This document shows, in pieces, positions 28,040 through 40,129 of a stretch of 64,000 bases of DNA. A program made the position numbers and the translations under genes. The notes under the pieces are model-generated. The model saw only the letters and a list, made by a program, of their open reading frames with translations. It had not been told where the DNA came from and did no database searches. Source of the stretch: Streptomyces sp. NBC_00878 (lineage in GTDB: Bacteria > Actinomycetota > Actinomycetes > Streptomycetales > Streptomycetaceae); NCBI RefSeq assembly GCF_026341515.1, contig NZ_JAPEOK010000001.1, positions 7,936,001-8,000,000 of the forward strand, read 5' to 3'. Each line of letters opens with the position of its first letter. Within the stretch, counting starts at the first letter, position 1.

Positions 28040-29587
28040 TCAGCCCAAATCACCCGCGGCCGTGATCTCCGCCAGCCGCACCAGAGTCCGTACGGCAGAC
28101 CCCGTCCCGCCCTTGGGCGTGTAGCCGAACGGCCCCTGCTCATTGAAGGCGGGCCCCGCGATGTCGAGGTGCGCCCACGTGATCCCCTCGCCCACGAACT
28201 CCTTGAGGAAGAGTCCGGCGACCAGGCCGCCGCCGTACCGCTCGCCCATGTTGGCGATGTCGGCGGTCGGGGAGTCCATCCCCTTCTTCAGGTGCTCCGG
28301 CAGCGGCATCGGCCAGGCGGCCTCGCCGACCTCCTCGGCGGCCTCGTGCACCGCCGTACGGAACGCGTCGTCGTTCGCCATGACGCCGAACGTCCGGTTC
28401 CCGAGGGCGAGCATCATCGCCCCGGTCAGCGTCGCGACGTCGACGATCGCGTCCGGGGTCTCCTCGGAGGCCTTGGCGAGCGCGTCGGCGAGGACGAGCC
28501 GGCCCTCGGCGTCGGTGTTGAGGACCTCGACGGTCTTGCCGCTGTACATGCGCAGCACGTCGCCGGGGCGGGTGGCGGAACCGGAGGGCATGTTCTCGGC
28601 CAGCGCGAGCCAGCCGGTCACGTTGACATCGAGGCCCAGCCGCGAGGCGGCGACGACCGCGGCGAACACGGCGGCGGCGCCGCTCATGTCGCACTTCATC
28701 GTCTCGTTGTGCCCGGCGGGCTTCAGCGAGATGCCGCCCGAGTCGTAGGTGATGCCCTTGCCGACGAAGGCGAGGTGCTTCTTCGCCTTGGAGGAGGTGT
28801 ACGACAGCTTCACCAGGCGGGGCGCGGACTCGGAGCCGGCGCCGACGCCGAGGATGCCGCCGTACCCGCCCTTCTCCAGGGCCTTCTCGTCGAGCACCTG
28901 CACCTTGATGCCGTGCTCCTTGGCCGCGGCCTGCGCGACGGCCGCGAAGGCCTCGGGGTTGAGGTCGTTCGGCGGGGTGTTGACGAGGTCACGGGCGCGG
29001 TTCAGCTCCTCGGACACGGCGGTGGCACGCTCGATCGCCGCCTTGAACGCCTTGTCGCGGGGCTTGCCGCCGAGCAGCGTGGCCTCGACGAGCGGGGCCT
29101 TGCCGTTCTTGGCGTCCTTCCCGCCGTCGGTCTTGGCGGTCTCCTTGTACGCGTCGAAGGAGTACGCGCCGAGCAGCGCGCCCTCGCCGACGGCGCCCGC
29201 GTCGGCGGCGTCCTCGATCGGCAGGGCGAACGCGGCCTTCTTCGTACCGGCGAGGGCGCGCGCGGCGGCACCGGCCGCGCGGCGCAGGGTCTCCCCGGAG
29301 AAGGAACCGTCCTTCGCGGGCAGCGCACCGAGACCGACCGCCAGCACGAGCGGTGCCTTGAAACCGGACGGTGCCGGCAGCTTCGTCACCTCGCCCTCGC
29401 CGCCCGAGGCGCCGAGGGTCTCCAGAACGCCGGCGAGCCTGCCGTCGTACGCCTTGTCCACGGCCTCGGCGCCCGGTGCCACGACCAGGTCCCCGGACTT
29501 GGGCCCGGTGCCCTTGGCGACACCGACGACGATGGCGTCGACCCGCAGGCCGGGCGCCGCGGCGGTGCTGAGAGTGAGAGCAGTCAC
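28040..29587 (-). CDS. pepA: Leucyl (cytosol M17) aminopeptidase
   Basis: Two-metal exopeptidase releasing N-terminal residues from peptides in the cytosol. 515 residues with an N-terminal macro-like domain and a C-terminal M17 domain: GKGITYDSGGISLKPAG, MKCDMSGAAAV and the signature NTDAEGRLVLADALA. The family is hexameric and uses Zn/Mn. GTG at 29587 (VTALTLSTAAAPG) is the start judged by family N-terminus; an ATG 105 nt upstream is in less plausible sequence. Convergent with none; divergent from the polysaccharide locus across 282 bp. Confidence 0.94.
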   Translation of the reverse strand: MTALTLSTAAAPGLRVDAIVVGVAKGTGPKSGDLVVAPGAEAVDKAYDGRLAGVLETLGASGGEGEVTKLPAPSGFKAPLVLAVGLGALPAKDGSFSGETLRRAAGAAARALAGTKKAAFALPIEDAADAGAVGEGALLGAYSFDAYKETAKTDGGKDAKNGKAPLVEATLLGGKPRDKAFKAAIERATAVSEELNRARDLVNTPPNDLNPEAFAAVAQAAAKEHGIKVQVLDEKALEKGGYGGILGVGAGSESAPRLVKLSYTSSKAKKHLAFVGKGITYDSGGISLKPAGHNETMKCDMSGAAAVFAAVVAASRLGLDVNVTGWLALAENMPSGSATRPGDVLRMYSGKTVEVLNTDAEGRLVLADALAKASEETPDAIVDVATLTGAMMLALGNRTFGVMANDDAFRTAVHEAAEEVGEAAWPMPLPEHLKKGMDSPTADIANMGERYGGGLVAGLFLKEFVGEGITWAHLDIAGPAFNEQGPFGYTPKGGTGSAVRTLVRLAEITAAGDLG

Positions 29588-29869
29588 GGTGGTGAAATCT
29601 CGCTTCCATAGAGTTGCTGTGGCCGTCGGGGGTGAGGGCGGCCGGGGCGGTGGAGTACCGGGCACGAGCCTACGCGCGGTCGCGTGTTTCACTCATTCCA
29701 GCGGGGATTCATCCCCGCTTGGCCGCCTGGCCACTTCTCACCCCTCACTCCTGTGACCTGAGCCACACTCCTTGTATTTGCGGTGGGTAAACGGTTCATC
29801 GCTTTGCATCATTTCCACGGAACCTCCTCGAATCGACCGTGAGGGGGATCCGGTGGGGGAGGGGCGAAC

Positions 29870-31906
29870 ATGGCGCAGAGAGCGCCCAGATGGAGAAACG
29901 CGGCCGCTGTCATGGCGGCCGCCGGTCTGCTGGCCCTGGGGCTGGGAACCCCCGGGGCGTCGGCGGCGGAAGAGCCGCGCATCGATCTGAGGGTGCTCGT
30001 CGTCGACAACGGCGACAGCCCCGTGGAAGCCGTCACGGAGGAGCTGAAGACCACCGGCGTCCCGTATACGACCGTCGACCTGAACGACTCGGGGCGCCCG
30101 ACGATCAACGAGGCGTTCCTGAGCGACACGGTGGACGGCACGCCGCGTGCCAAGTACCAGGGCGTCGTACTGCCCAACGAGGCGCCGTTCGGGGCGGGTT
30201 CGGCCGAGCAGACCGCCCTTGAGGCGTACGAGCGGACCTTCGGCATCCCCCAGGTCGACGCCTACACCTGGGCGCACCCCGGGGTCGGCCTCGACTACAC
30301 GAACGCGGGCGGCTGGGCCGGCACGCTCGACGGCCGTGAGGCGGCGGTCACCGCGGCGGGCGGGGCGGGGTATTTCGGCTATCTCGACGGGCCGCTGACG
30401 TTCGAGGACAACTCGGCTTCCGTCCAGGAGAGTTACGGCTTCGTGGCCCGGCCGCGCGAGGGCTTCACCAGCTACGTGGACATGGCCGTGCCCGGCGGGA
30501 CGGGCCGCGGCAGCCTGGTCGGCGAGTACGCGCACGACGGGCGCCGCGAACTCGTCGTGACCTTCGCGTACAACCACTACCAGCAGCAGTTCCGCGTTCT
30601 TGCCCGTGGCATTGTCGAATGGCTGACTCAGGGCGTACACCTGGGTCAGAACAGGAACTATTTTTCTGTCCATGTCGATGATGTGTTCGCACCCGACAGC
30701 CGCTGGGACACCGAACGCAACTGCACACCCGGCGACTTCGACTGCGTGGGCGGTGACGGTGAGGGAACCACGCCGATCCGTATGACCGCGGCCGACGCGG
30801 TGTACGCCGCCCAGTGGCAGCGGGACAGCGGCTTCACCCTCGACATGGTCTACAACGCCGGAGCGGGCGAGGAGTGGAAGAGCGAGAACGGCAACGTGGA
30901 CGCGCTGGCCGACCAACTCCTCGCGGACAAGGGCGAGTACCGCTGGGTCAACCACACCTACACGCACCCCTTCCTCGGCTGCGTCCAGGACACCAGCACC
31001 GTGCCGTGGAGCTGTGCGAAGAACACCGACGGCTCGACCCAGTACGTGAGCCGCGCCGACATCTCGGCGGAGATCCGCGACAACAACCTGTGGGCGGCGA
31101 GCCACGGACTGCCCGTCGACACCAGCGAGTTGGTGACCGGCGAGCACTCCGGCCTCAAGAGCCTGCCGCAGCAGCCGGACGACAACCCGAACCTCGCCGG
31201 CGCCCTCGCGGACAACGGAGCCGAGTGGACCGCCTCCGACAACTCCCGTGAACCGCAGCAGCGTTCGGTGGGCGGCGCCCTGACAGTGCCCCGCTACCCG
31301 ATGAACGTGTACTACAACACCGGCACGGCCGAGGAGATGGCCGACGAGTACAACTGGATCTACACCTCGACGGCCGACGGCGGCAGCGGCATCTGCGAGA
31401 ACAACCCGACCTCGACCTGCCTCGACGAGCCGCTGGACGGGGCGACCGGCTACGCGTCGTACATCGTCCCGCAGGAGGCGCGCACCGCCCTCGGCCACGC
31501 CGTGGGCAACGACCCGCGCCCGCACTACGTGCACCAGTCCAACCTGGCCGAGGACCGGCTGTTCTACCCGGTCGTGGACAAGGTGCTCGCCGACTACCGC
31601 GCGCTCTACGCCGACAACGCACCGCTGGAGAACCCGCGGCAGAGCGCCATCGGCACCGAGCTGAAGAATCGTGCCGCCTGGCAGCAGTCCGTCGCCGACG
31701 GTGAGGTCACGGCGTACCGCGTCGGCACCACCGTCACTGTCACCGCACCGTCCGGGACCCGGATCCCGGTCACCGCACCGGAAGGAACGCTCAAGCAACT
31801 CCTGCTCGGCACCACCGCGTTCGGGACGCCCTACGCGGGGGAGCGCTCGGCCTGGACCACGCCGGACGCTCTGCAGACCGCCCTCACCCTGAAACTGCCC
31901 GCATAA
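29870..31906 (+). CDS. Secreted Agd3-like (CE18-type) polysaccharide deacetylase
   Basis: 678 residues with a signal peptide (RRW-less but clear: WRNAAAVMAAAGLLALGLG, AxA-type end GASAAEE). The N-terminal ~230 residues are a β-rich/Rossmann-like domain as in Agd3; then FSVHVDDVF (Asp270/Asp271) and HTYTHP (His362-366) give the Asp-His-His metal triad of polysaccharide deacetylases. Fungal Agd3 deacetylates galactosaminogalactan (GAG) GalNAc. Here the enzyme would act outside the cell on the polymer made by the next genes. ATG follows GGAGGGG. A patch around the HVDD motif uses AT-rich codons unlike the rest. Family is known; substrate is inferred. Confidence 0.75.
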   Translation: MAQRAPRWRNAAAVMAAAGLLALGLGTPGASAAEEPRIDLRVLVVDNGDSPVEAVTEELKTTGVPYTTVDLNDSGRPTINEAFLSDTVDGTPRAKYQGVVLPNEAPFGAGSAEQTALEAYERTFGIPQVDAYTWAHPGVGLDYTNAGGWAGTLDGREAAVTAAGGAGYFGYLDGPLTFEDNSASVQESYGFVARPREGFTSYVDMAVPGGTGRGSLVGEYAHDGRRELVVTFAYNHYQQQFRVLARGIVEWLTQGVHLGQNRNYFSVHVDDVFAPDSRWDTERNCTPGDFDCVGGDGEGTTPIRMTAADAVYAAQWQRDSGFTLDMVYNAGAGEEWKSENGNVDALADQLLADKGEYRWVNHTYTHPFLGCVQDTSTVPWSCAKNTDGSTQYVSRADISAEIRDNNLWAASHGLPVDTSELVTGEHSGLKSLPQQPDDNPNLAGALADNGAEWTASDNSREPQQRSVGGALTVPRYPMNVYYNTGTAEEMADEYNWIYTSTADGGSGICENNPTSTCLDEPLDGATGYASYIVPQEARTALGHAVGNDPRPHYVHQSNLAEDRLFYPVVDKVLADYRALYADNAPLENPRQSAIGTELKNRAAWQQSVADGEVTAYRVGTTVTVTAPSGTRIPVTAPEGTLKQLLLGTTAFGTPYAGERSAWTTPDALQTALTLKLPA

Positions 31907-31999
31907 CGGAGAGCAGCGCCACAGCACGACGCGCGTCCCGGCCAAGACCGGCCGGGGCGCGCCACCGAGCCGTAAGAAATGTTCCAGGGGGGAACACGC

Positions 32000-33523
32000 A
32001 TGATGAGCACAGGCCGTCATGTCACCATGCTCACGGAGGGCACGTATCCACTGGTCCACGGCGGGGTCAGCACCTGGTGCGACCAACTCGTGAAGGGGAT
32101 GCCCGAAGTCGAGTTCAACGTCGTCTCACTGTCCGGCAACGGCCGCGAACCCGTGACCTGGGAGCTGCCGAACAACGTCTACCAGCACACGTCCGTACCG
32201 CTGTGGGGCACGCTGCAGGGATCCCGGCGCGCACCGCGCGGCCCCGCCCGCCGCCGCTTCATCGACACCTATGAGCGGTTCCTGCTGTCGTTCCTCGACC
32301 CCGAGGCGCACTGCGACTTCGGCGAGGCGTTCTACGAACTGGCCCAACTCGCGCGTGACGGACGGCTGTCGGCCGCCCTGCGCACCGAGGCCGCCCTGCG
32401 CTCGCTGATGTGGATCTGGACCATGCCGCATCTGCCGACCGCCCGGGCCCGCCCCACCGTGCACGACGCGCTGACGGCGACCGACCTGCTGGAGCACGCG
32501 CTGCGCCCGCTGAGCGTCCGGCTGCCCGAGGACTCCGTCTCGCACGCCACCGGCAGCGGCCTGGCCACGCTCCCGGCCCTGGCCGCACGGCAGTTGGACG
32601 GCATCCCGTTCCTGCTCACCGAGCACGGCATCTATCTGCGTGAGCGCTACCTCGGCTACCGCAGCGACGCACAGCGCTGGCCCGTCAAGGCCCTGATGCT
32701 CGGCTTCTACCGCGAGCTCAACACCCTCGGCTACCAGACGGCCGACCTGATCACCCCGTGCAACCAGTACAACCGCCGCTGGGAGGAGCGCGGCGGCGCC
32801 GACCCCGACAAGATCCGTACCGTCTACAACGGCGTCGACCCCGCCGCCTTCCCGCACGCCGGACCCGAACCGGACGTCCCCACGCTCACCTGGTGCGGTC
32901 GCGTCGACCCCATCAAGGACCTCGAGACGCTGCTACGCGCGTACGGCATGGTGCGCGCCGAACTCCCCGAGACCAGGCTGCGGTTGTTCGGCCCGGTACC
33001 GCCCGGCGGCGAGGCGTACAAGACCAGGCTGGAGAAGCTCGGCGCCGAGCTGGGCGTCACGGACGGGCTCACCTTCGAGGGCCGGATCAGCGAGGTGTGG
33101 CGGGCCTACGCGGCCGGGCACGTCGTGATGCTCTCCTCCATCTCCGAGGGCTTCCCCTTCTCGATCATCGAGGCCATGTCCTGCGGCCGGACCACGGTCT
33201 CCACCGACGTGGGCGGCGTCAGCGAGGCGGTCGGCGACACCGGGCTCGTGGTGCCGCCGCGCGAGCCCGAGAAGATGGCCGCGGCCGCGCTCGTCCTGCT
33301 GAAGGACGACGAACGCCGCCTGGAACTGGGCCAGTTGTCCCGCCAGCGCGTCATCGAGCGCTTCACGCTGCGCCGCTCCGTGGACGCTTTCCGGACGATC
33401 TACCAGGAGCTCGCGGGCCTGCCCGAGGTGTACGAGCCCACGCTGGAGACCGTCGCCGACTGGACCCTCGAACTGCGCGACCCCTGGTACCAGGCCGTCG
33501 CGACGGACGGGACCGGCTGGTGA
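32000..33523 (+). CDS. pelF: PelF-type GT4 glycosyltransferase
   Basis: 507 residues, the same length as Pseudomonas PelF. N-terminal DUF3492 region MLTEGTYPLVHGGVSTWCDQ, central TEHGIYLRER, then the GT-B C-terminal half with YNGVDPAAFP and the E-x7-E motif of retaining GT4 enzymes (E383/E391 in SEGFPFSIIEAM). PelF polymerises UDP-GalNAc/GlcNAc in Pel synthesis. ATG at 32000 follows AGGGGGG; the next gene starts inside its stop (GTGA), so the two are coupled. Cytosolic, probably associated with the membrane protein that follows. Confidence 0.88.
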   Translation: MMSTGRHVTMLTEGTYPLVHGGVSTWCDQLVKGMPEVEFNVVSLSGNGREPVTWELPNNVYQHTSVPLWGTLQGSRRAPRGPARRRFIDTYERFLLSFLDPEAHCDFGEAFYELAQLARDGRLSAALRTEAALRSLMWIWTMPHLPTARARPTVHDALTATDLLEHALRPLSVRLPEDSVSHATGSGLATLPALAARQLDGIPFLLTEHGIYLRERYLGYRSDAQRWPVKALMLGFYRELNTLGYQTADLITPCNQYNRRWEERGGADPDKIRTVYNGVDPAAFPHAGPEPDVPTLTWCGRVDPIKDLETLLRAYGMVRAELPETRLRLFGPVPPGGEAYKTRLEKLGAELGVTDGLTFEGRISEVWRAYAAGHVVMLSSISEGFPFSIIEAMSCGRTTVSTDVGGVSEAVGDTGLVVPPREPEKMAAAALVLLKDDERRLELGQLSRQRVIERFTLRRSVDAFRTIYQELAGLPEVYEPTLETVADWTLELRDPWYQAVATDGTGW

Positions 33524-35043
33524 GCGGATCGATCCGAATGCCGCCCGGCTCGCGGCCCGACATGCTCCCCTATGTGCCGCGCCAGCGCCGTCCCAGCTGG
33601 GCGGAACCCGACCCGGTGGACGAACTCGCCACGCGACTGGAGGAGTTCATAGCCGCCGCCGTCCACCCGGACGAGATAGCCGCGATCCTGGAGTCCGACG
33701 GCATGTCGGACGACCAGATACGCGAGAAGTACGGCTGCAAGGACTCCTTCTCGCTCGCCGAGGAGCTGTACGAGCGCGTCGAGCGCCGCCACCCCGAACC
33801 CTCGGGACCGGCCCACGACCCGTGGCAAATCGGCCTGCTGGGCTGCCTGTTGAGAGGCGTCGTCTTCGCGCTGCCCGGCCTCGGCTACGTCCTCGGGGCG
33901 CCCCTCCTCGCGGGCCCGCAGGACGGCTTCGGGCTCCCCGCCGGTACGGTCCCGCTGCTGGCCGGCGCCCTGTGCGGCTGGGCCTGGAACCAAGGCCTCG
34001 CCTATCGGGCGTACTCCTGGCTGGGGTTGGGCGACAAGGGGGCCGCCCGCCGCTCGCTCCTCGTCGGGGCACCCGTGGGCGCACTGCTCGGCTCGCTCGT
34101 CGCCCTGGCCGTCGCCCCCGGTCACCTCGGCGCGGTCGCCTTCGCCGCGGGCCAGTCCTGCTACCTCGCGGCGGCCACCGTACTCCTGGTCATGGCCCGT
34201 GAACGGGCCCTGCTCGCCGCGCTGTTGCCCATGGCGGCCGGTGCCGTACTGGCCATGGCCCAGTCGGTCCCGGAGGCCGCGAGACTGGGCCTGCTGCTCG
34301 GCTCGCTCGGTATCGTCGGCGCCCTCGCCGCCATCGAAGTCGCCCCGGCCGTACGGCAGTCGGGAGACGGGACGCGGATCGGCTGGTCCGCCGGGCTCGC
34401 GGCGCTGCTGCCCTTCGGCGGCACCCAGGACACCAAACGGCCGCGCAGCGCGTCGCCCGGGCTCGCCGACGCCCTGCCGTACGCCTTCTTCGGCCTCGGC
34501 AGCGGCGTCCTCGTCGTGTACGTGGCGCTCGGCGACGTCCTGGCCGACGGCTCGACGAGCGCCGCGGTCGCCGCCCCCGCCGCGGTGGCGCTCACGCTGA
34601 GCATGGGGCCGGCCGAGTGGCTGCTCTATCGCTTCCGCAGCGGAAGCCTCGCCGGACTGCGCTCCAGCAGTACGTCACGCGACTTCTGGCGGACCACCGC
34701 GGTCACGCTCGTCAAATGCCTCAGCGGCTACTTGGCCGCGCTGTTCCTGCTCAGCCTCGCCACGGCCGCGCTGTGGCCGCACGCGCCCGGCCTGAGCGGT
34801 GTCCGCCTGACCGCCCTGCTGCTCCTCGGGGTCGTCCTCTGGACCGGCCTGCTGCTCCAGTCGTTCGGCGCCGTCCTGAGTGCCGCGGTGATCTGCTGCG
34901 CGGCGGGGCTCGCCCAGACCGGGGCGCTGCTCGTGGACGGGGTGAGCCCGCACCTGGTCGGCCTCTTCGTCTACGGCGCGGCGGCCGGCGTACTGGCGAC
35001 CCTGGTCTGCTGGCAACTGGGAAGGGCGACCGCCCACAGATGA
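33520..35043 (+). CDS. Polytopic membrane protein, PelG-like by position
   Basis: 507 residues. A ~95-residue cytosolic N-terminus (DELATRLEEFIAAAVHPDEI, MSDDQIREKYGCKDSFSLAE) precedes about 11-12 hydrophobic segments, e.g. LLGCLLRGVVFALPGLGYVL, SLLVGAPVGALLGSLVALAV, SGVRLTALLLLGVVLWTG. Placed between PelF and the spherulin-4 gene with 4-nt overlaps on both sides, it is the natural candidate for the polysaccharide exporter/partner of PelF (PelG role). I see no conclusive sequence signature of PelG itself, so the name is by context. Confidence 0.6.
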   Translation: MSGSIRMPPGSRPDMLPYVPRQRRPSWAEPDPVDELATRLEEFIAAAVHPDEIAAILESDGMSDDQIREKYGCKDSFSLAEELYERVERRHPEPSGPAHDPWQIGLLGCLLRGVVFALPGLGYVLGAPLLAGPQDGFGLPAGTVPLLAGALCGWAWNQGLAYRAYSWLGLGDKGAARRSLLVGAPVGALLGSLVALAVAPGHLGAVAFAAGQSCYLAAATVLLVMARERALLAALLPMAAGAVLAMAQSVPEAARLGLLLGSLGIVGALAAIEVAPAVRQSGDGTRIGWSAGLAALLPFGGTQDTKRPRSASPGLADALPYAFFGLGSGVLVVYVALGDVLADGSTSAAVAAPAAVALTLSMGPAEWLLYRFRSGSLAGLRSSSTSRDFWRTTAVTLVKCLSGYLAALFLLSLATAALWPHAPGLSGVRLTALLLLGVVLWTGLLLQSFGAVLSAAVICCAAGLAQTGALLVDGVSPHLVGLFVYGAAAGVLATLVCWQLGRATAHR

Positions 35044-35684
35044 GCACCCTCCTCGTCCCGTACTACGAGCACCCGTCCGTCCGCCCCTCGGAGTGGGAGG
35101 CGATCGTGGCGGCGGCACCCCGCCTCTACGGGGTCGTACTGAACCCGGCCAGCGGCCCCGGCGACCGCCCCGACCCGGCCTTCGCCGAGATCGCCGAGCG
35201 GCTGCGAGGGAGGGACGTCCGGGTGCTCGGCTACACCGACACCGACTACGGCCGCAGGTCTCGCGCGGAGGTCGTCCAGGACCTCACGCGGTACCGCGAC
35301 TGGTACGGCACGGACGGCGCGTTCTTCGACCAAGTCACGTCAGGGCTGGGCGACTTCGGCCACTACCAGCGGCTCGCCTCGTCGGCCTGGGGCGCGGGCT
35401 GCACCACCATCGCCCTCAACCACGGGGCGCCGCCACACCCCGCGTACGCCCGCCTGGCCGACGTCCTGGTCACCTTCGAGGGAACCTGGGACGCGTACCG
35501 CAGCTTCCGCCCGGCCCCCTTCACGGCAGGCCGCACGCGCCAGTGCCACCTGGTCCACGGCGTCCCACCGGGCGCCCCCGTGGGCGACCTGGCCCGCACC
35601 CGGGGCGCCACGATCCACTGCGCGGTCCCGGGCGAGGGGGCGCACCCGTGGGGCACGCTGCCGTGTGCCTTGCAGGCGGGCTGA
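35040..35684 (+). CDS. Spherulation-specific family 4 (Sph3/PelA-like) glycoside hydrolase
   Basis: 214 residues starting at the ATG of an ATGA overlap. Family hallmarks: LLVPYYEHPS, GVVLNPASGPG, VLGYTDTDYG and WYGTDGAFFDQ. In fungal Sph3 (GH135) and PelA, an Asp and a distant Glu are essential; the equivalents appear to be D97 and E147 (TFEGTWDAY). The residue after D97 is Gln, not the Glu found in Sph3. No signal peptide is visible, so it looks cytosolic, unlike Sph3 and PelA. It may trim chains inside the cell or be exported by another route. Confidence 0.78.
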   Translation: MSTLLVPYYEHPSVRPSEWEAIVAAAPRLYGVVLNPASGPGDRPDPAFAEIAERLRGRDVRVLGYTDTDYGRRSRAEVVQDLTRYRDWYGTDGAFFDQVTSGLGDFGHYQRLASSAWGAGCTTIALNHGAPPHPAYARLADVLVTFEGTWDAYRSFRPAPFTAGRTRQCHLVHGVPPGAPVGDLARTRGATIHCAVPGEGAHPWGTLPCALQAG

Positions 35685-35698
35685 GCTTTCTTTTGCCT

Positions 35699-35912
35699 GC
35701 GGGCTGGTGGGGGCTGGTCGCGCCCACGCGGCGGAGCCGCAAATCGGTACAGCCCCGCGCCCCTGAAAGACGGGCTGCGCCCGCTTTCAGGGGCGGGCGG
35801 GGCAGTGGGCATGGGGCGCGCGGAGCGGTGCGCTTTTCGGGCGGGCGGGACCGTGGGCTTTTAGGGGCGCGGGGAACTGCGCGACCAGCCCCCACCGGGC
35901 CGCACTGTGAAG
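35699..35912. repeat. Intergenic palindromic repeat family 1, copy F
   Basis: Full palindromic copy between the convergent spherulin-4 and cobS genes: GGGGGCTGGTCGCGCCC and, about 190 bp on, GCGCGACCAGCCCCC reading back. Inside are GCGGAGCCGCAAATCGG, GCGCCCCTGAAAG and a GGGGCGGGCGG/TTTTCGGGCGGGCGG stretch peculiar to this copy. Confidence 0.85.
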
Positions 35913-35929
35913 ACAACCCCCGGCCCCCC

Positions 35930-36736
35930 TCACCCAAGGGCCAGCACCACCAGCGTCGCGGTAGCGGCAGTTTCGGCCAAGGCTCCGAAGATGTCCCCGG
36001 TGATCCCGCCGAAGCGGCGGACGCTGTGTCGAAGCAGCAGCTCGGCGCAGCCGCACGCCGTAACCACGGCGAGCACGGCGAGCACGCCGTGGACAGGACC
36101 GTACGCCCCGAAGCCCGCCCCCGCCGCGAGCGCGGTGACGCCGACCGTCACCAGAACCGCCCCCCGCAGGGGCACCGTGCCGGCCACCGCCGCCCCCAAC
36201 CCCTCCGGCCGAGCCGGCGGCACGCCCACCCTCGCGGCCAGTGTGAGCGCGAGCCGGGCCGCGACCGCCGATACGACGGTCGCCAACGCACCCCGCCCCC
36301 AAGAGCCGCCGTAGGCCTCCGAGAGCGCCGCCACCTGGCCGAACAGCACGAACACGAGGGTGATGACACCGAACGGCCCGATGTCCGACCGCTTCATGAT
36401 GCGCAACGCGTCCTCGGCGGGCTTGCCGCTGCCCAGCCCGTCCGCGGTGTCGGCGAGCCCGTCGAGATGGAGGCCGCGCGTCAGCACCGCGGGCACCGCC
36501 GCCCCCGCCACGGCCGCGAGCAGCGGACCCGCGCCGAGGACCAGCAGGAACAGGCCGACCGCCGCGGCGGCCAGACCCACCACCAGCCCGGCGACGGGCG
36601 CGCACAGCATCCCGGCCCGCGCGGCCTCGCGGTCCCACCGCGTCACCTCGACCGGCAGCACGGTGAGCGTGCCGAAGGCGAAACGGAGGCCGTCGGGCCA
36701 GGAGGCCGGGGTGGTTTCCGGCGGGGGCTTGGACAC
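35930..36736 (-). CDS. cobS: Adenosylcobinamide-GDP ribazoletransferase
   Basis: Last step of cobalamin nucleotide-loop assembly, joining AdoCbi-GDP and α-ribazole at the membrane. 268 residues, multi-pass, with RGLHLDGLADTADGLG (the family's HLDGLAD motif), RIMKRSDIGPFGV and RFGGITGDIFGAL near the C-terminus. GTG start without clear ribosome site. cobT and the cobU fusion lie 3.6 and 6.1 kb away on the same strand, separated by unrelated genes. Confidence 0.93.
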   Translation of the reverse strand: MSKPPPETTPASWPDGLRFAFGTLTVLPVEVTRWDREAARAGMLCAPVAGLVVGLAAAAVGLFLLVLGAGPLLAAVAGAAVPAVLTRGLHLDGLADTADGLGSGKPAEDALRIMKRSDIGPFGVITLVFVLFGQVAALSEAYGGSWGRGALATVVSAVAARLALTLAARVGVPPARPEGLGAAVAGTVPLRGAVLVTVGVTALAAGAGFGAYGPVHGVLAVLAVVTACGCAELLLRHSVRRFGGITGDIFGALAETAATATLVVLALG

Positions 36737-38314: not shown

Positions 38315-40129
38315 TCATCTGTGTGACTCCAGGTGCTTGCGGTGCAGCCATTTCGGCAGGCCCGGCGCCTCCAGGAACCCCTCCGCGCGGGCCGCGGCGA
38401 GGCCGATGCGCGGTAGGTCACCGCTCTTCTCGAAGAGCAGGAACCGGGGTTCCCAGATGGGCCGGTACTTGGCGTTGGCGCGGTACAGCGACTCGATCTG
38501 CCACCAGCGCGAGAAGAAGCTGAGGAGTGACCTCCACAGCCGCAGTACCGGGCCCGCGCCGAGACGCGCCCCACGTTCGAAGACGGAACGGAACATGGCG
38601 AAGTTGAGCGAGACCTGCGTGATCCCGATCTCGGGGGCCCGCTGGAGGAGCTCGATGACCATGAACTCCATCAGCCCGTTCTCGGAGTCCCGGTCCCGCC
38701 GCATGAGGTCGAGCGAGAGCCCGTGCGGCCCCCAGGGCACGAAGGAGAGCACCGCCCTCAACTCGCCCTCCCCATAGGTGCATTCGAGCATCACGCACCG
38801 CCCGTCACCCGGATCCCCGAGCCGCCCGAGCGCCATGCTGAAGCCCCGCTCGGTCGCCCCGTCCCGCCAGTCGTCGGCACGCTTCAGGAGGTACGCCATC
38901 TCGTCGGCCGGGATGTCCTCGTGGCGCCGGACGCGGACCTGGTAGCCCGCGCGCTGGACGCGGTTGTAGGCCTGGCGGACGGTCCGCATGGCCCGCCCCT
39001 CCAGCGTGAACTCGGCCGTCTCGACGATCGCCTCGTCTCCCAGCTCCAGCGCGTCGAGGCCGTGGCGCGCGTAGATGGTCCCCGCCTCCTCGCTCGCGCC
39101 CATCACCGCCGGAATCCAGCCATGTACGCGCGCCTCGGCGAGCCAGGGGCCGATGGCGCCGGGCCACGCCTCGGGATCGCCGATGGGGTCGCCGGAGGCC
39201 AGCGAGACACCGCTCACGACGCGGTAGACGACGGCTGCCTTGCCGGTCGGGGACCACACCACGCTCTTCTCGCGGCGCAGCGCGAAGTAGCCGAGGGAGT
39301 CGCGGTCGCCGTTCTTGTCGAGCAGCGCGCGCAGCCGCCGCTCGTCGTCCTCGGTGAGCGGGTCGACGGCGCGGCGGGAACGGAAGGCCGCGTAGAACAC
39401 GGCGAGGACCAGCAGGGTGCTGAGGACGTTGATGGCGACGTTCACCCAGTTGGGAGTGGTGACGCCGGGGAAGTGGGAGTCGTCGGCGGCGACCGAGATC
39501 AGCCGCAGGGTGCCGTAGCGCCAGCGGTCCGGGAACGTCGAGGGGTGCGCGTCGTGCGCGTTGTTCGTGACGGTCACCAGGAGTGCGGCGAGCAGTGAGC
39601 AGAGCAGCAGTCCGCCGACCGCGACGGCGGCCGCCAGCTTCGGGTTCGAGCGGTCGCCCTTCGCGTAGAACTCGCGCCGGCCGATGACGAGGGATGCCAC
39701 GAAGGCGGCCGTGAGGGCGAGGGAGATCCAGTTCTGCGGGTACTGGCGGATCTCCGGGAAGGCCATCGCGAAGGCGAACAGCAGGAGGAAGAGCCCGCTG
39801 AGTACGAGGTTGAGGATCCAGGCCGCTCGTTTGCGACGGCGCATCGTGATCGCCAGGAACATCGTGAACGCACCCGACGCGAAGCCTGCCGTCAGGAGAT
39901 ACGGGGTGAAGTAGTCCTCGGTGTTGTGGCGGCGCACGTCCTGGCCGAGGGAGACCCATGCGGCGCTCAGGAAGTTGAGGAACGTGACGACGCGGAGGTA
40001 CCACACGGCGAACGCGGTGGCGCGCCGCGAGGCGGGGGTGGTTGGGCGGGCGCCGTCGCCGGTGCGGGCGGGGGCCCGCGCTGGCTCCGGGGCCGGGTTG
40101 TGCACGACGGCAATTCGGGCGGGTCCCAT
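38315..40129 (-). CDS. Phosphatidylglycerol lysyltransferase-type membrane protein (DUF2156)
   Basis: 604 residues: about seven transmembrane segments in the N-terminal third, then a cytosolic double-GNAT-like DUF2156 domain (SGVSLASGDPIGDPEAWP, GLSLDLMRRDRDSENGLMEF, ISLNFAMF-like VSLNFAMFRSVFERGA). This is the MprF/LysX-type aminoacyl-transfer domain without a lysyl-tRNA synthetase domain. It could add an amino acid from aminoacyl-tRNA to phosphatidylglycerol, altering surface charge. Start from ATG 40129; no ribosome site is visible. Confidence 0.8.
   Translation of the reverse strand: MGPARIAVVHNPAPEPARAPARTGDGARPTTPASRRATAFAVWYLRVVTFLNFLSAAWVSLGQDVRRHNTEDYFTPYLLTAGFASGAFTMFLAITMRRRKRAAWILNLVLSGLFLLLFAFAMAFPEIRQYPQNWISLALTAAFVASLVIGRREFYAKGDRSNPKLAAAVAVGGLLLCSLLAALLVTVTNNAHDAHPSTFPDRWRYGTLRLISVAADDSHFPGVTTPNWVNVAINVLSTLLVLAVFYAAFRSRRAVDPLTEDDERRLRALLDKNGDRDSLGYFALRREKSVVWSPTGKAAVVYRVVSGVSLASGDPIGDPEAWPGAIGPWLAEARVHGWIPAVMGASEEAGTIYARHGLDALELGDEAIVETAEFTLEGRAMRTVRQAYNRVQRAGYQVRVRRHEDIPADEMAYLLKRADDWRDGATERGFSMALGRLGDPGDGRCVMLECTYGEGELRAVLSFVPWGPHGLSLDLMRRDRDSENGLMEFMVIELLQRAPEIGITQVSLNFAMFRSVFERGARLGAGPVLRLWRSLLSFFSRWWQIESLYRANAKYRPIWEPRFLLFEKSGDLPRIGLAAARAEGFLEAPGLPKWLHRKHLESHR

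Follow-up and report, generated by a model that had tools for sequence, protein, structure and literature searches.

A probable reduced Pel/GAG-type exopolysaccharide locus with conserved gene order in Streptomyces

Four consecutive genes in a 64,000-nucleotide stretch of the 11.1 Mb genome of Streptomyces sp. NBC_00878 (hereafter the window, G000:C1:7936001-8000000) are best explained as a reduced exopolysaccharide system of the Pel type and of the fungal galactosaminogalactan (GAG) type, a reading that we regard as probable. The four open reading frames (ORF1 to ORF4, Table 1) encode an Agd3-type deacetylase, a PelF-type glycosyltransferase (GT), a membrane protein and a Spherulin4 protein. 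A first-pass annotation had described them as plus-strand genes coupled by overlaps from the second gene on, and the reading frames bear this out: ORF2 and ORF3 overlap at GTGA and ORF3 and ORF4 at ATGA, ORF1 and ORF2 are separated by 72 nt, and the sequence makes 32000 a likelier start of ORF2 than 31979. Its proposal that the locus makes a secreted Pel/GAG-like polymer has good support, in that the GT is PelF-like, ORF1 has the Agd3 fold and the gene order is conserved among streptomycetes; as a whole, its interpretation is partly supported.

Both motifs that had suggested a secreted Agd3-like deacetylase, HVDD and HTYTH, are present in ORF1 (D270/D271 and H362/H366), and its predicted model has the Agd3 fold. 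A five-row family profile (A1) compared with the PDB at E up to 1 returned Agd3 (6nwz, E 3.2e-11) as its sole match; an AlphaFold2 model made from a 37-row alignment, with a predicted local distance difference test score of 89.4, has 6nwz as its top Foldseek match (template modelling (TM) scores 0.69/0.70, E 4.3e-28), with human NDST1 as runner-up. The catalytic and metal-binding residues of Agd3 are D377, D378, H510, H514, R613 and H668 (PMC7229062; here and below, papers are cited for the accessible parts of their text). By motif alignment these correspond in ORF1 to D270, D271, H362, H366, R475 and H555, of which all except R475 are invariant in 37 of 37 rows of alignment A4; the R475 (CM3) position holds Arg in 23 rows, Asp in 13 and Cys in one, the Asp and Cys rows being proteins of the type D loci defined below. 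The best N-terminal 11-residue hydropathy of ORF1 is 2.37. By predicted fold and residues, ORF1 would be a secreted Agd3-type deacetylase, with deacetylation of alpha-1,4-linked N-acetylgalactosamine (GalNAc) as its putative activity. Among the 120 top homologues listed for each of ORF1 and ORF3, the named genomes are all Streptomyces, the nearest being S. phaeochromogenes (92 and 93%); a precomputed Agd3_CE domain is recorded on 1 of the 120 best homologues listed for ORF1 (P0136).

ORF2 was rightly recognised as a PelF-type GT4 with a DUF3492 start and an E-x7-E motif: it scores 195.2 bits against DUF3492 (cut-off 23.3) and 163.3 against the NCBIfam PelF equivalog (cut-off 100), and the motif reads EGFPFSIIE at residues 390-398. 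ORF3, described earlier as a protein of about 12 transmembrane segments, does have about 12 membrane helices in its predicted model, and over this membrane part Foldseek finds a MOP fold, with WzxE and MurJ among the matches. From its modelled fold and its position, ORF3 is probably a PelG-equivalent MOP exporter, an identity that the first-pass annotation had not proposed. It also has a predicted N-terminal cytosolic helical domain (about residues 30-90), in which L36, V48, L57, E58, G61 and F77 are invariant in alignment A3; a type C paralogue in the same genome matches ORF3 over residues 14-131 only, a stretch that includes this domain.

ORF3 and PelF-type GTs mostly occur together. Of 296 genomes searched across the phylum, 16 have an ORF3 profile match and 21 a DUF3492 match (19 over the cut-off); 15 genomes have both, 14 of them within 4 kb on one contig and G232 on two contigs, and 9 of the 15 belong to the window's own genus. 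One further genome, G222, has an ORF3 match (E 9.7e-4) without a DUF3492 match. In a search for PelG in ten genomes of our choosing, PelG exceeds its cut-off in G111, G140 and G379, each time just after a PelF-type GT, and all three have strong DUF3492 matches and no ORF3 match. PelG is sub-threshold in G067, G101 and the window's own genome (25.1 bits against 29, away from the locus) and has no match in G298, G388, G266 and G389. In three genomes (loci L220, L223 and L224 of G101, G266 and G254), where ORF1 was not found, a PelF-like GT and proteins resembling ORF3, about 535 aa long, adjoin a large membrane protein, which has 711 aa in L220 and L224 and reaches the contig end in L223. These ORF3-like relatives match the ORF3 profile over residues 32-346 (hhalign probability 98.7%, E 3.1e-16); that of L220 (7304-8914) scores 20.8 bits with Pfam PelG, below the cut-off of 29, and the other two have no match.

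We surveyed synteny in 101 Streptomyces genomes, the window's own included, in which ORF1 matched in 53, ORF3 in 68, ORF4 in 97 and DUF3492 in 96. From these, 65 loci were fetched (full-length ORF1 matches in G014:C160 and G028 being left out), and genes were predicted with a simple script based on codon position and given names through BLAST against our own references; loci of wider relatives came from the best 80 of 453 relatives. Type A, defined by ORF1 with the leucyl aminopeptidase gene pepA, has the order ORF1-ORF2-ORF3-ORF4, often followed by a gene of glycoside hydrolase family 114 (GH114). All four genes are present in 28 of the 34 type-A loci, so that the synteny on which the first-pass annotation had staked its reading is conserved in the genus; of the six loci that miss genes, L079 and L083 stop at contig ends. 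An in-frame ORF3 start overlaps the GT stop by 4 nt at 29 of 30 testable type-A loci, and an in-frame ORF4 start with a 4-nt overlap is found at 13 of 28. The cobalamin synthase-like gene that we call cobS, or its neighbour, lies downstream in 22 of 34, three of the misses ending with the contig. GH114 (291.2 bits against a cut-off of 27) is present at 20 of 34 and not at the window's locus, whose genome has one distant copy at C1:561392.

The other locus types differ in their sugar genes. Type B has the order ORF1-GT-ORF3-LegB-like dehydratase-nucleotidyltransferase-short-chain dehydrogenase/reductase (SDR)-ORF4, again often with GH114; among the 24 loci labelled B, L069 is in fact type D and L128 is broken. 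Type C lies beside moeZ, lacks ORF1 and has the order GT-ORF3-SDR-ORF4; it was seen in two genomes (L064, the window's own, and L075), and from the counts of ORF4 and DUF3492 across the genus we infer that it is nearly genus-wide. The group of seven labelled "other" comprises these two, L073 (complete, with no pepA in its stretch), and L087, L113, L126 and L127 (fragments, without a called ORF1, or broken). Type D has one or two ORF1 genes, GT, ORF3, a nucleotidyltransferase, an SDR and a dehydrogenase, often GH114 and mostly no ORF4; its hosts are Pseudonocardiaceae, Micromonosporaceae and, rarely, Streptomyces (L069/L131, L130). All eight of L132-L139 have tandemly duplicated ORF1-like genes, which in the aligned rows have Asp where Agd3 has its CM3 Arg. 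Dactylosporangium (L162, L169) has a type-A-like set, and Actinomadura type B (L150, L155); L202 is also type B, cut short. The genomes of L082 and L088 carry type B genes at L067 and L125.

Several results weigh against reading the locus as a Pel/GAG-type system. ORF1 scores 20.1 bits with Pfam Agd3_CE, below the gathering cut-off of 27.6; as a single sequence it matched no PDB chain at E up to 1; and Met666 of Agd3 CM4 is replaced by Tyr553. The TM scores of ORF3 are low (0.34-0.49 across 32 MOP rows), its profile compared with three PelG sequences gives a non-significant result (hhalign probability 1.1%, E 0.048), as do the bridging relatives in L220, L223 and L224 (0.8%, E 0.074), and G389 has a strong DUF3492 match yet neither ORF3 nor PelG. 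At L082 and L088, ORF1 stands alone beside pepA, with GT, ORF3 and ORF4 not found there. ORF4 has no visible signal peptide and lacks Glu167, and no product or phenotype data for the locus were found in the literature searched. A weaker point of the first-pass annotation is that the gene combination is not new in kind: bacterial agd3 operons in which a cytoplasmic GT, a membrane protein with several spans and GH114 accompany the deacetylase, joined in some Actinobacteria by spherulin-4, are on record in the accessible text of PMC7229062. We rejected ORF3 as a proven PelG homologue, the profile comparison not being significant, and assign it by fold and position; the Pfam PelG model gives no match at E up to 1, and the VIA list, which is neutral on this point, names no PelG. 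A MOP fold in PelG's place is supported and descent from PelG only suggested, because fold and gene order fit but the profile comparison is not significant.

ORF4 had been read as a spherulin-4 hydrolase of the Sph3/PelA family. The family holds (Spherulin4 104.3 bits, cut-off 30.2; family profile against Sph3, 5c5g E 1.2e-27 and 5d6t E 1.5e-27); ORF4 does not, however, resemble a secreted hydrolase of the Sph3 type. The putative catalytic residues of Sph3 are Asp166, Glu167 and Glu222 (PMC10485009); an Asp/Glu pair is described as nucleophile and acid/base (PMC12054363, where the Sph3 Asp is printed as 196, taken here for 166), and the equivalent double mutation D160A E218A abolishes the activity of the PelA hydrolase (PMC12022489). 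ORF4 retains the Asp166/Glu222 pair as D97 and E147 and has Q98 at the Glu167 position. In 107 copies, labelled by script as 54 type A, 50 type B and 3 "C", the Asp is present in 107 and Glu167 in none, the window included. It is quite possible, if not our favoured view, that ORF4 is a regulatory or binding pseudo-hydrolase instead of an active GH135 enzyme: Gln stands at the Glu167 position in all 54 type A copies, and Gln (26) or Arg (24) in all 50 of type B, the N-terminus is not signal-like, and the true type C copies, L064 and L075, also lose the acid/base Glu (the third "C" row, in which Glu222 is retained, is probably the type A fragment L087, whose contig has no ORF1). The retention of the Asp and Glu222 equivalents in 104 of 104 type A and B copies, a pair that the accessible literature names as catalytic (PMC12054363, PMC12022489), argues for activity. 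The Spherulin4 protein of L064 (own genome, about C1:3618595-3624175) has lost both the Glu167 and the Glu222 equivalents. As to location, N-terminal hydropathy is 1.01 in ORF4 against 2.37 in ORF1, and 2.70 and 3.33 in two Rubrobacteraceae-clade copies; this simple hydropathy measure, our only secretion test, has overlapping ranges in copies (type A/B medians 1.30/1.43, up to 2.05) and controls (ORF1 median 2.24, down to 0.67; GT median 0.92, up to 1.39). Secretion from an upstream start was rejected, the 141 in-frame upstream residues containing no hydrophobic stretch. Judged from its N-terminus, ORF4 is probably cytosolic.

The first-pass annotation had also specified a GalNAc-containing, deacetylated cationic polymer; the Pel/GAG-like locus stands, and GalNAc is unproven because sister loci carry the LegB-like dehydratase, nucleotidyltransferase and SDR. 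The same machinery might act on another amino sugar, e.g. a 6-deoxy-N-acetylhexosamine or N-acetylglucosamine (GlcNAc), a possibility that we take seriously while doubting it. Type B adds the LegB-like SDR (TIGR04180, 447.9 bits, under the cut-off of 475), a sugar-1-phosphate nucleotidyltransferase and a second SDR; type D adds a nucleotide-sugar dehydrogenase (TIGR03026, 296.3 against 189.8) and further SDRs; and the second-best fold match of ORF1, NDST1, is a heparan sulfate N-deacetylase that acts on GlcNAc. In an ORF1 tree of 50 rows of our choosing, for which the tool warns of long branches, the 13 Streptomyces type A rows group in a single clade (93/93, not starred) next to those of Streptomyces type B; Actinomadura type B falls in the larger group around both, and Dactylosporangium outside it. 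The sugar genes may plausibly have been lost en route to Streptomyces type A. None of them is present at the window's locus, no close LegB was found in its genome (best 36% identity), and GH114 accompanies 20 of the 34 type-A loci. Ega3, the Aspergillus GH114 member, is specific for deacetylated GAG (PMC7229062). Three GalE proteins over the cut-off in the own genome mean that UDP-galactose or UDP-GalNAc could be supplied without local genes. A lipid-linked wall glycan, with ORF3 acting as a Wzx- or MurJ-like flippase for a lipid-linked oligosaccharide and a wall-attached glycopolymer as the product in place of a free one, appears unlikely to us: WzxE and MurJ are indeed among the fold matches, and among 63 ORF3 homologues one has a weak match (E 0.011) to an undecaprenyl-phosphate translocase-like Pfam model, but the four genes include no initiating phosphoglycosyltransferase or polymerase, and a PelF-PelG pairing fits the gene order better. 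Tentatively, by synteny, we take SCO5174 to be the type C GT, the S. coelicolor gene numbers for these loci all being tentative. Only if that mapping is right, mutants in SCO5174 (a putative glycosyltransferase), filed under cell-envelope genes with lowered actinorhodin (PMC6585502), would favour a wall glycan, and a mycelium transcriptome table containing SCO5174, SCO5175 and SCO5177 (PMC3610822) would bear on type C.

For the reduced Pel/GAG-type system that we prefer, gene content, protein families, predicted folds and conserved synteny suggest the following mechanism. ORF2 would polymerise a nucleotide-activated N-acetylhexosamine, most likely UDP-GalNAc from housekeeping GalE, on the cytosolic side, and ORF3, a MOP-fold exporter coupled to it, would move the chain across the membrane; ORF2 might dock on the N-terminal cytosolic domain of ORF3, as it would on PelD and PelE elsewhere. 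Secreted ORF1 would then strip some N-acetyl groups, making the polymer cationic and sticky, and ORF4, probably in the cytosol, may trim or bind chains that fail to leave; at many other type-A loci the GH114 lipoprotein would cut deacetylated stretches. Hyphal adhesion or aggregation, the function proposed at first pass, can only be inferred. No PelD- or PelE-like gene is among the four genes; the PelD_GGDEF model matched nowhere, not even in G140, and therefore says nothing on the absence of PelD, and PelE was not searched for. PelB and PelC are outer-membrane parts and are not expected in Gram-positives. More tentatively, ORF3 could represent an unrecognised MOP-superfamily family (it has no Pfam match), marked by its own N-terminal cytosolic domain, that pairs with an actinobacterial PelF branch and replaces PelD, PelE and PelG, with a cytosolic Spherulin4 protein policing unexported chains and Streptomyces paralogues, type C nearly genus-wide, making chemically different cationic polymers.

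The closest described relatives are the operons of Bamford et al. 2020 (PMC7229062), which share the Agd3 homologue, the cytoplasmic GT, the multi-spanning membrane protein, often GH114 and in some cases spherulin-4; the accessible text places some Gram-negative agd3 genes near Pel genes, does not contain the terms PelF, PelG or flippase, leaves the membrane protein unassigned and does not describe the present locus types. The Gram-positive pelDEA(DA)FG operon, as in B. cereus (PMC7112168), likewise has a PelF-type GT followed by a membrane exporter, and a secreted deacetylase; unlike it, as far as its accessible description goes, the Streptomyces locus has no PelD- or PelE-like gene, no PelG by sequence, and an Agd3-type rather than a PelA-type deacetylase. 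With the Aspergillus GAG cluster (gtb3, agd3, ega3, sph3, uge3; PMC10485009) it shares the Agd3 fold, the Spherulin4 family and, at sister loci, GH114; it differs in having a PelF-type GT4 in place of the transmembrane synthase, an ORF4 that is seemingly not secreted, and no epimerase at the window's locus.

In the ORF1 tree, a named Rubrobacter clusters with two genomes, G140 (L225 4999-14139) and G111 (L226 5415-14524), whose operon runs from two membrane genes through PelF and PelG to an Agd3-like gene; on the opposite strand lies a Spherulin4-like gene whose product is hydrophobic at its N-terminus and carries the DE motif. In G140, the one of the two analysed with Pfam, the matches are GAF plus GGDEF, TPR/HEAT, DUF3492 (323 bits), PelG (475), Spherulin4 (155), Agd3_CE (85.8) and CBM87 (45.1), the last two both over 27.6. 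The operon resembles the Streptomyces locus in PelF, the Agd3-type deacetylase and Spherulin4; it differs by its GAF/GGDEF and TPR genes, its true PelG, and a Spherulin4 protein that retains DE behind a hydrophobic N-terminus. That Rubrobacteria have pel operons is already mentioned (PMC7112194); in the literature accessible to us, mostly without subscription papers, we found no printed report of one joined with Agd3 and Spherulin4.

Table 1. Features of the locus and its borders (window positions).
Feature	Position	Strand	Description
ORF1	29870..31906	+	678 aa; secreted Agd3-type (CE18-like) polysaccharide N-deacetylase, by predicted fold
Probable Sec-type signal peptide of ORF1	29870..29965	+	about 32 aa; from sequence reading, cleavage site a guess
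ORF2	31979..33523	+	PelF-type GT4 glycosyltransferase
ORF3	33520..35043	+	507 aa; MOP-superfamily exporter fold, proposed PelG-equivalent
N-terminal cytosolic helical domain of ORF3	33607..33789	+	helices 32-86 in the model
ORF4	35040..35684	+	214 aa; Spherulin4/GH135-type TIM-barrel protein
Leucyl aminopeptidase (pepA)	28040..29587	-	NCBIfam 664.8 bits, cut-off 432; upstream border of the conserved site
Cobalamin synthase-like gene (cobS)	35930..36736	-	downstream border in many type-A loci

The cobS-like flank scores at best 157 bits with the NCBIfam adenosylcobinamide-GDP ribazoletransferase model (cut-off 282) and 101.2 with TIGR00317 cobS (cut-off 110). Between ORF4 and cobS (35698-35904) lie long GC-rich inverted repeats with 26 nt arms, 92% complementary. 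Further downstream, 38315-40105 encodes a lysylphosphatidylglycerol synthase-type membrane protein (LPG_synthase_C, 337.6 bits) that covers the first half only of the bifunctional LysX model. A defence role for the locus was rejected, the four proteins having no PADLOC match, as was an RNA regulator, Rfam giving no hit at gathering score in 29500-36000.

In the literature searched, what appears new is the exporter fold, the replacement of Glu167 across the family, together with a probable place in the cytosol, and the locus types of Streptomyces. The Rubrobacteraceae-clade operons, by joining PelF, PelG, Agd3 and Sph3-type genes, link bacterial Pel to fungal GAG, and the Streptomyces locus may show a stripped version of such operons. 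Industrial growth of Streptomyces is limited by the tendency of its hyphae to form pellets and adhere to surfaces; for a deacetylated hexosamine polymer that may underlie such behaviour, the locus and its paralogues offer concrete candidates that can be tested.

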